Positions 12,603-58,300 of a stretch of 64,000 nucleotides of DNA are shown here, piece after piece. The first letter of the stretch is position 1. The number at the start of each line of letters is the position of its first letter. The translations under genes were made by a program, and so were the position numbers. Under the pieces are notes generated by a model. It did not search any database, had not been told where the DNA came from, and worked only from the letters and a program-made list of their open reading frames with translations. The stretch is from Clostridia bacterium (GTDB taxonomy: Bacteria > Bacillota > Clostridia > Oscillospirales > QAMX01), in NCBI GenBank assembly GCA_017532825.1, contig JAFXIT010000025.1:1-64000 (forward strand). The letters are read 5' to 3'.

Positions 12603-12628
12603 CGGTCCGAATCCACTTCAGACAAAAA
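12603..12628. repeat. 26-bp direct repeat, remnant of the tRNA-linked element
   Basis: These 26 bases (beginning CGGTCCGAATCCACTTCAG) are repeated exactly at 12866-12891, the tail of the tRNA-Tyr-linked element. This copy lacks the two-hairpin core and is followed by a different palindromic sequence, so it looks like a decayed or recombined partial copy. Confidence 0.8.
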
Positions 12629-12651: not shown

Positions 12652-12752
12652 CGGATTCCACTTCTTCACTATTCACTCTTACTTATTACTTTCCAAAAAT
12701 CCAGGTATATAAGAGAAAAGTGAAGAGTGAAGAGGTAATAGTGAAAAAGTAA
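12652..12752. repeat. MITE-like imperfect inverted repeat
   Basis: TTCTTCACTATTCACTCTT at 12662-12680 is opposed by AAGTGAAGAGTGAAGAGG with AATAGTGAAAAAGT at ~12717-12750, giving an imperfect inverted repeat of ~20-30 bp around an AT-rich centre. It has no coding capacity. It lies between the partial and full copies of the tRNA-linked element and resembles non-autonomous palindromic repeats (inference). Confidence 0.5.
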
Positions 12753-12782
12753 AAATCCCCGTTCTTTCGAACGAGGATTTTT
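12750..12782 (-). terminator. hairpin terminator at the far end of the tRNA-Tyr element
   Basis: AAAAATCC-CCGTTC / GAACG-GGATTTTT stem with a TTTC loop. Read on the minus strand it follows the duplicated tRNA-Tyr 3' end directly, as a tRNA terminator would. Confidence 0.75.
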
Positions 12783-12882
12783 GGTGGGAGAGGGTGGATT
12801 CGTCCGTCTTCGGACGGCCCGCCTCGCGGCTCTGACAGTCCGCAGGACTGTCATTCACTCCCGCTCGGTCCGAATCCACTTC
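12777..12882 (-). repeat. tRNA-Tyr-linked structured element with copied tRNA 3' end
   Basis: A 26-base segment (12777-12802) repeats exactly the tRNA-Tyr 3' terminus plus flanking T-run (12921-12946). It is followed by the hairpin TCCGTC-TTC-GGACGG, a CGCGGCTCTGACAG hairpin (GACAGTCC / GGACTGTC), CATTCACTCCC, and GGTCCGAATCCAC. That last stretch is the reverse complement of the tRNA-Tyr T-arm (12938-12950). The same order of parts occurs next to tRNA-Leu at 23769-23870. No ORF is present. Confidence 0.8.
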
Positions 12883-12886
12883 AGAC

Positions 12887-12922
12887 AAAAAAATAACGGC
12901 CACCCTAATGGGTAGCCGTTAT
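12887..12922 (-). terminator. terminator of the tRNA-Thr/tRNA-Tyr unit
   Basis: AATAACGGC-CACCC / GGGT-GCCGTTATT stem immediately after the tRNA-Tyr CCA end on the minus strand, followed by a T run. Confidence 0.85.
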
Positions 12923-12925
12923 TTT

Positions 12926-13010
12926 TGGTGGGAGAGGGTGGATTCGGACCACCGAAGTCAGTGACAACAGATTTACAGTCTGCCCCCTTTGGCCGCTCGG
13001 GAACTCTCCC
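12926..13010 (-). tRNA. tRNA-Tyr (GTA)
   Basis: A class II tRNA of 85 nt with encoded CCA. The acceptor stem is GGGAGAG / CTCTCCC, the anticodon loop is CTGTAAA with GTA, there is a long variable arm, and the T-arm is GGTGG-TCCGAAT-CCACC. It lies 26 bases downstream of tRNA-Thr in the same transcript. Confidence 0.97.
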
Positions 13011-23768: not shown

Positions 23769-23870
23769 AACGGGGAGATGGGCCGGATTTGCCGCCTTTG
23801 CGAAGGCGGCCTCGGCGGGCTCTGACAGCCATTCAGGCTGTCATTCACTCCCCGTCGTTCAAATCCGTTT
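23769..23870 (-). repeat. tRNA-Leu-linked structured element
   Basis: A second member of the family at 12777-12882. Order on the plus strand: CGGGGAG (23771-23777), CGGATTTG (23784-23791), hairpin GCCGCCTT-TGCG-AAGGCGGC, CGGGCTCTGACAG hairpin (TGACAGCC-ATTCA-GGCTGTCA), CATTCACTCCCCG, CAAATCCG (23860-23867). The CGGATTTG/CAAATCCG arms match the T-arm of the adjacent tRNA-Leu (GGCCGGATTTGAAC on this strand). The shared core GCTCTGACAG...CTGTCATTCACTCC is nearly identical to the Tyr copy. There is no ORF. Confidence 0.8.
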
Positions 23871-23915: not shown

Positions 23916-24000
23916 TGGTGCCGCTGGCCGGATTTGAACCGGCACGAATCACTTCGCCGCATTTTGAGTGCGGTGCGTCTGCCAGTTTCGCCACAGCGGC
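23916..24000 (-). tRNA. tRNA-Leu (CAA)
   Basis: A class II tRNA of 85 nt with encoded CCA: acceptor GCCGCTG / CAGCGGC, anticodon loop CTCAAAA (CAA), long variable arm, T-arm GCCGG-TTCAAAT-CCGGC. It has its own consensus promoter at 24014-24042. Confidence 0.97.
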
Positions 24001-58034: not shown

Positions 58035-58044
58035 ATCAAAAAAG

Positions 58045-58300
58045 AGAAACCATTGAGTAAGAGAAGTACCCCAAGACGAGGCCTTAAAGAGAGCGGCGGA
58101 CGGTGAGATCGCCGCAGGCGGAGGTTGGGCGAATGGGCTTACGAGGGCGGCAGGAAAGCGAAAGCAAGTAATGGCCGACGGGCGCTCCCGTTACAGAGCA
58201 GAGCGCATGTAAGTGCGTGAAGTGGGCTTTCAAGCCAATTTAGGTGGCACCGCAGAGACAGAGTCTTTGTCCTAATTCAGGATGAAGGCTTTTTGTATTT
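58045..58300 (+). promoter_or_regulatory. T-box riboswitch (Trp) upstream of trpB
   Basis: Stem I has AAAGAGAGCGGCGG...GGTGAGA and GGGCGAATGGGCTTACGAG, with TGG (58134-58136) as the likely Trp specifier. The T-box core is AATTTAGGTGGCACCGC (58238-58254). The terminator AGTCTTTGTCCT / AGGATGAAGGCT (58262-58290) is followed by TTTTTG. Uncharged tRNA-Trp should switch on trpB. Confidence 0.85.

Follow-up and report, generated by a model that had tools for sequence, protein, structure and literature searches.

The tRNA-Tyr gene in the analyzed stretch of 64,000 nucleotides from a gut/rumen Clostridia genome (hereafter, the window) is followed by a cassette of 144 bp that carries no gene and belongs to what looks like a hitherto undescribed family of miniature mobile elements targeting tRNA genes. 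On the minus strand, the tRNA-Tyr gene is followed by a terminator, an inverted copy of the T-arm, a hairpin core, a second hairpin, a copy of the tRNA 3' end, and another terminator. The features of this locus, and of a sister element in the same window, are as follows.

12926..13010, minus strand: tRNA-Tyr (GTA), the host or target gene (ARAGORN and Rfam)
12889..12926, minus strand: terminator 1, unit-borne, missing from the empty site L117 (inverted repeat I3 and the L117 alignment)
12867..12879, minus strand: inverted T-arm copy (antisense arm), sense sequence GTGGATTCGGACC (repeat I5, 13/13; profile of 52 units)
12826..12864, minus strand: core stem 1 with the conserved internal loop GGGAGTGAATGAC..GTCAGAGCC (GGGAGTGAATGACAG..CTGTCAGAGCC)
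12802..12818, minus strand: hairpin 2
12782..12802, minus strand: direct copy of the tRNA-Tyr 3' end, C56 to A76, 21 nt, exact
12777..12802, minus strand: the same 3'-end copy with the following A/T run, 26 nt, sense sequence CGAATCCACCCTCTCCCACCA and an A run
12751..12782, minus strand: terminator 2, native to tRNA-Tyr, which in L117 follows the tRNA directly (repeat I7 and the L117 alignment)
12653..12750, no strand: inserted MITE-like inverted-repeat sequence that splits an older unit; also present in L117 (repeats I1 and I2; alignment)
12603..12628, minus strand: relic of the older distal unit, linker and inverted T-arm (repeat D2, 26/26)
12792..12881, minus strand: whole three-way-junction element, 81.4 bits (covariance model R1)
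23916..24000, minus strand: tRNA-Leu (CAA), target of the sister unit
23781..23870, minus strand: sister element behind tRNA-Leu, 77.5 bits (covariance model)

The initial annotation had reported an exact 26-bp duplicate of the tRNA 3' end with its T run and a 13-base reverse complement of the T-arm. Both were recovered, the former at 12777-12802 and 12921-12946 with the spacing of 144, the latter at 12867-12879 vs. 12938-12950 with 100% identity. An exact 26-bp match inside 200 bp is no chance event, and for a 13-nt inverted match in ∼570 bp we estimate the chance expectation at about 0.002. The two hairpins between the arms and the terminators behind the tRNA and behind its 3'-end copy were likewise found where they had been placed, but the size of the element, given as ∼100 bp, is 144 bp for the whole unit, with the minus strand as the sense strand. 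Past the inserted inverted repeat, the relic at 12603-12628 is an exact 26-bp repeat of 12866-12891; its linker and inverted arm are identical to those of the intact tRNA-Tyr unit.

The inserted inverted repeat has relatives of its own. Sequences of this second family (ACTTTTTCACTATTACCTCTTCAC..) lie right behind tRNA terminators at 12653-12750 of the window and in L133, L180, L228/L250, L229, and L232, and in L133, L180, L229, L232, and L250 the middle part contains 9-11 nt copied from the stem of the local terminator. The second family is another neighbor-copying element. Elsewhere in the window, a T-box leader is found at 58044-58277 (Rfam RF00230, 109.6 bits).

An unoccupied counterpart of the tRNA-Tyr locus is present in contig JAFSCG010000091.1 of a goat rectum Clostridia (L117), where tRNA-Thr and tRNA-Tyr are followed directly by terminator 2 and the inverted-repeat insertion. 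After removal of the 144 bp between the 26-bp repeats, the window aligns with L117 over 302 bases with 94.7% identity and gaps of at most 11 bases. As L117 lacks exactly these 144 bp, terminator 2 is native, while terminator 1 was gained or lost together with the inverted arm and the core as a single segment. In the second pair, L111 and L069 at tRNA-Gly, the identity is 92.8% over 3.58 kb upstream and 83% over 255 bp downstream, and the difference is 149 extra bp with a 25-bp direct repeat, T55..CCAAAA. Empty sites in relatives, the kind of evidence used by Islander, are available for both the window (L117) and L111 (L069). These pairs would fit either gain or loss of a unit, and units are gained or lost precisely between direct repeats and stack in tandem. 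On this sequence evidence, a unit consists of a tRNA 3' part from C56 through CCA plus a terminator of its own, a linker, the inverted T54-C62 segment, and the folded core. Occupancy keeps the tRNA intact but gives it a new terminator, and the original 3' fragment and terminator are displaced, as in tRNA-integrated islands.

The covariance model identified six copies in the source genome. The sister copy proposed by the initial annotation at 23769-23870 is real (the model match is at 23781-23870), and its inverted arm at 23857-23867 matches tRNA-Leu in 11 of 11 positions, but its 3' copy matches tRNA-Leu over 11 nt only. Behind tRNA-Leu on contig 5, there is an array of five units with near-identical arms, alternating terminators, and differing cores; the last unit is truncated and set apart by an insertion that carries an XRE-type gene. 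Further variants are located behind Gly, Met, and Leu tRNA genes on other contigs, and tRNA-Trp carries a longer insert of another kind.

A scan with the strict core pattern yielded at least 116 stretches in genome contigs, and all of the matches listed came from Clostridia-type metagenome genomes. The strict core occurs in 30 of 394 genomes, and the covariance model has matches in 88 of the 384 genomes examined from the order, in 45 of 166 genera. The median unit length is 153 bp (interquartile range 146-159), and units usually come one to three in tandem. At least one unit was found behind 80 of the 163 tRNAs listed, with two units behind 16, three behind 6, and 13 isotypes involved, but these frequencies are biased, as the loci come mostly from the core-pattern scan and the arm-including covariance model and hence were chosen by the core pattern and by a model containing the arms. 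At three loci, tmRNA genes are occupied. Among the 132 cores listed, 43 share the strand of a tRNA and are located no more than 400 bp 3' of it, compared with 0, 4, and 1 in the other three configurations. Of the 82 fetched model matches, 57 immediately follow a tRNA, 7 are at contig edges, and 18 are without a detected tRNA, many of which still have a ..CCA arm. We also considered that the core might invert between the inverted T-arms and rejected this, given that the 43 tRNA-linked cores among those listed all have one orientation.

The arms match the local tRNA. The longest stretch shared by the direct copy is 17.8 nt with its own tRNA and 6.0 nt with other isotypes; for the inverted arm, these values are 10.6 and 6.2 nt. 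In the per-position profile of 52 units (7 of 59 fell below the match threshold and were left out), the direct copy agrees with its own tRNA from R57 (0.90) to A76, with T54 at 8% and T55 at 25%, and begins at C56/R57 in most units, while for the inverted arm the agreement is 0.90-1.00 over T54-C62 and falls off past those positions. The arm of tRNA-Tyr units holds the complement of the unusual C55 of tRNA-Tyr and therefore is derived from the tRNA and is not a fixed part of the core. Where the copy and the tRNA mismatch, the arm sides with the tRNA in 11 of 13 cells. In three tRNA-Met units (L120, L138, and L139), the 5' arm reverse-complements the anticodon arm instead of the T-arm, and the 3' copy starts in the variable loop.

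Near-identical cores are found at different tRNAs of one genome, with locally matching arms (L111 at tRNA-Gly and L058 at tRNA-Leu); in another genome, the tRNA-Ser units L169 and L170 also have near-identical cores and locally matched arms. Across isotypes, the core similarity is 0.76 within genomes and 0.68 between genomes (0 of 2000 permutations), and the between-genome similarity is the highest at the same tRNA, 0.84. Therefore, cores are mainly inherited or exchanged at one and the same tRNA, and to some extent they spread or are homogenized between tRNAs. Units proximal to the tRNA are slightly better preserved, and a strict age gradient along arrays was rejected, the signal being only weak. 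The viral contig L121 carries at ∼11.9-12.2 kb two tandem units at the contig end, beside a displaced 15-nt tRNA-type fragment; a prophage may have entered the tRNA gene that bears the array. In genome SVOJ01, the contigs of L097 and L111 end with CAGACTGTCGAAAAA ends, which look like the two flanks of a single insertion within the terminator hairpin of a distal unit.

Cores also exist away from tRNAs. The core with the ends TAGCGAAGCG..GCGAGA is found inside dispersed palindromic repeats of the CTCCC(TC)..GAGGGAG type (L008, L010, L147, L172-L177, and L159-L167), including phage contigs (L122-L128), and in genomes G023, G065, and G326 most core copies lie in palindromic repeats without a link to tRNA. 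Hence, the association with tRNA is not universal, and elements of more than one kind may have the core in common as a hairpin module. The expectation that copies always sit 3' of tRNAs and match the local T-arm thus holds for the 43 cores vs. 0, 4, and 1 and for their arms, but not for the many palindromic-repeat sites. In L143, L144, and L155, the core is on the 5' side of tRNA-Leu, in antisense, and splits a direct partial tRNA copy between the anticodon arm and the D-arm; these insertions have no inverted arm and are tandem in L144 and L155.

To describe the fold, we used 40 aligned units. In the three-way junction, 96.1% of cells are paired, compared with 30-43% when the sequences are slid, and double changes occur in 14 of 23 pairs (0 of 500 shuffles). 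The covariation of the arms is trivial, since both copy a tRNA. The core helices without the arms are 97.5% paired, with double changes in 9 of 15 pairs (0 of 500 shuffles). G-T wobbles are rare, with 5/916 and 16/849 in the stems vs. 39/854 in tRNA acceptor stems; therefore, DNA palindromes fit better than an RNA under selection, with the caveat that the upper stem is largely invariant. The element had no match among the covariance models of Rfam 15. The readings of the core as a kink-turn and as a tRNA-like structure were rejected, as the sequences, judged by eye, are out of register.

We found no recombinase tied to the units. The tRNA-Tyr cassette, with its 144 bp, and units in general (median 153 bp) are too short to hold an integrase gene. 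The only two tyrosine recombinases in the source genome are XerC/D-like and below every curated cut-off; against the integron integrase model (TIGR02249, cut-off 265), they score 77 and 55 bits. Y1 transposase (PF01797) and reverse transcriptase (PF00078) both have 0 hits in the source genome, and these absences are provisional, as the genome is 91% complete. The former is present in 10 of 20 carriers and 5 of 10 non-carriers, and the latter, in 3 of 20 and 4 of 10, respectively; with no association among these 30 genomes, both were rejected as the mover. A census of neighbors beside the cores revealed no recurring mobile-gene family and no autonomous partner. Genes between units were observed at two places: two glycosyltransferase genes (2.8 kb) between tRNA-Ser 3'-end copies, followed by a full unit (L334/L385, G350:C15), and an N6/N4 methyltransferase with a TdeIII-type restriction endonuclease (3.4 kb) between two units of a tRNA-Ser array (L354, G237:C16:74300-78700). 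As no genes between units were seen in ∼30 other arrays with several kb downstream, the genes in L334 and L354 may be independent insertions.

The T-loop-to-CCA boundary and the direct repeat of 25-26 bp are as at the tRNA sites of tyrosine integrases, and therefore a miniature cassette moved in trans is the best reading. Specifically, the units would be gene-less integrative cassettes of ∼150 bp residing in T-loops of tRNA and tmRNA genes and moved in trans, possibly as folded single-stranded DNA, a proposal we consider evenly poised between right and wrong. Site-specific recombination at the T-loop would move the units; on single-stranded or extruded DNA, the inverted arm and its partner would fold the unit to a hairpin that rebuilds the double-stranded T-arm and serves as the substrate, and the terminator of the unit would close the tRNA transcription unit after each insertion. 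What speaks against such cassettes is that no recombinase is tied to the units and no mobile-gene family to the cores, that the empty sites fit loss as well as gain, that preservation is just slightly better near the tRNA, and that the core spreads at non-tRNA palindromic-repeat sites; moreover, a purely conservative integrase alone cannot equip a unit with arms for a new tRNA. Fold-back replication is the strongest rival, as some inverted arms run far into the acceptor. Hairpin-driven errors with no dedicated mobility would combine fold-back of the polymerase at the terminator, backward copying of the acceptor and the T-arm, and a second turn at the core hairpin, which would yield forward-reverse-forward copies that expand and contract afterwards through homologous deletion. 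In L033, L066, L079, and L156, the inverted arm reaches into or across the acceptor, so that the tRNA end, the terminator, and the arm form one long palindrome; adjacent terminators are near-identical in 11 of 48 cases (at least 0.82), and scarce G-T pairs are expected of palindromes corrected at the DNA level. On the other hand, a foreign terminator comes with the unit in both empty-site pairs, the unit length is regular, and a core conserved in 45 genera is not makeable by tRNA copying, which leaves us thinking replication errors rather unlikely. An integron-like cassette system of gut Clostridia anchored at tRNAs, in which T-loops would be the fixed site, the cassette site would be the folded inverted T-arm, and genes would occasionally be captured (L354 and L334), strikes us as less likely than replication errors. 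In integrons, attC is made of two inverted boxes, RYYYAAC and GTTRRRY, that close a hairpin. Given the low T54 and T55 agreement, the 3' copy has no GTT box, but the inverted arms do pair; an integron proper was rejected, as both the integrase and the box tests failed.

The remaining explanations are less probable again. We doubt that read-through of the tRNA terminator turns the unit into a structured non-coding RNA, in which the arm would join the 3' copy in a three-way junction that affects the maturation or decay of tRNA. The paired and covarying core helices and the location nearly always on the tRNA strand agree with it, but a terminator stands ahead of each unit, wobble pairs are scarcer than in tRNA acceptor stems, there is no Rfam match, the spread is patchy by both the strict core and the model, cores differ inside one array, and the core is present in phage contigs and intergenic repeats. 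The presence of the core inside the CTCCC..GAGGGAG repeats, in many scattered places and on phage contigs, together with the tRNA-Leu anticodon/D-arm insertions without inverted arms, would suit a REP/MITE-type hairpin moved in trans by a palindrome-preferring transposase (Y1/HUH or DDE), for which T-arms and intergenic palindromes are targets. We doubt this explanation slightly more than the RNA, given the distribution of Y1 transposases, the C56-CCA boundary typical of integrases, and the fact that a constant target duplication or terminal repeat was not established. Retrotransposition, with a reverse transcriptase using the T-loop to prime the copying of a core RNA, is highly improbable: arms derived from the target and the duplication of the tRNA 3' end would suit target-primed synthesis with snap-back, but PF00078 is distributed as described above. 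Simple tandem duplication of the tRNA end, the outcome that would have undone the initial annotation, was rejected, as it cannot yield the inverted arm, the conserved core, or the foreign terminator. Overall, that interpretation is partly supported. Its mobile or recombining element aimed at tRNA 3' ends is well supported by the occupied/empty pairs, the same-strand 3' position, and the locally matching arms, whereas its alternative, an RNA mimic of the T-arm, gained no positive support, with no Rfam family and few G-T wobbles compared with tRNA.

If the units are indeed such cassettes, tRNA genes would be targeted not by large islands alone, but also by a very small, gene-less, self-terminating class, which island finders discard by design through their length and integrase filters. 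This would also account for the odd copies of tRNA ends and the stacked terminators behind tRNA genes in carrier genomes. With sites in both the empty and the occupied state and dozens of variants matched to their tRNAs, the system offers a clean way to learn how a hairpin gains arms for a new tRNA and lets one ask whether recombination of folded single strands exists beyond integrons. Our literature searches of open-licence papers found no description of such elements.

Several known systems are similar in part. Like CRISPR arrays, the units follow a leader (here, the tRNA) and alternate constant and variable pieces, but the repeat is a tRNA 3' end with a variable terminator, and there are no spacers. 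REP/BIME and MITE sequences are also short, gene-less, hairpin-forming, and dispersed, and the core itself occurs inside such repeats; the tRNA copies with locally matching arms set the units apart, as does the lack of Y1 transposase in the source genome. With integron cassettes, the units share tandem arrays at one anchor, an imperfect inverted repeat closing a variable hairpin, and rare genes between units. They differ in being anchored at a tRNA gene, nearly always gene-less, and found in another bacterial group, with neither attC boxes nor an integron integrase; attC sites fold as a single strand into a hairpin (PMC6393395), and the inverted arm would let a unit do likewise.

The likeness to tRNA islands and prophages is in the intact tDNA followed downstream by a cognate 3' fragment in the same orientation that starts in the T-loop, the 25-26-bp identity block ending with CCA, the tandem stacking, and the use of tmRNA. 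In mycobacteriophage Ms6, the 26-bp attP core lies in the T-loop of tRNA-Ala, and the exchange occurs within the 7-bp loop (PMC1762012). The tDNA crossover subsites in Islander include the anticodon loop and the T loop, and candidates shorter than 2 kb or without an integrase are rejected (PMC4383910). Whereas islands are at least 2 kb long (2-200 kb in Islander), the cassettes are ∼150 bp (144 bp here), without an integrase and with their own terminator. Unlike islands, they combine an inverted T-arm copy with a conserved hairpin core, and one core family uses more than 10 tRNA isotypes.
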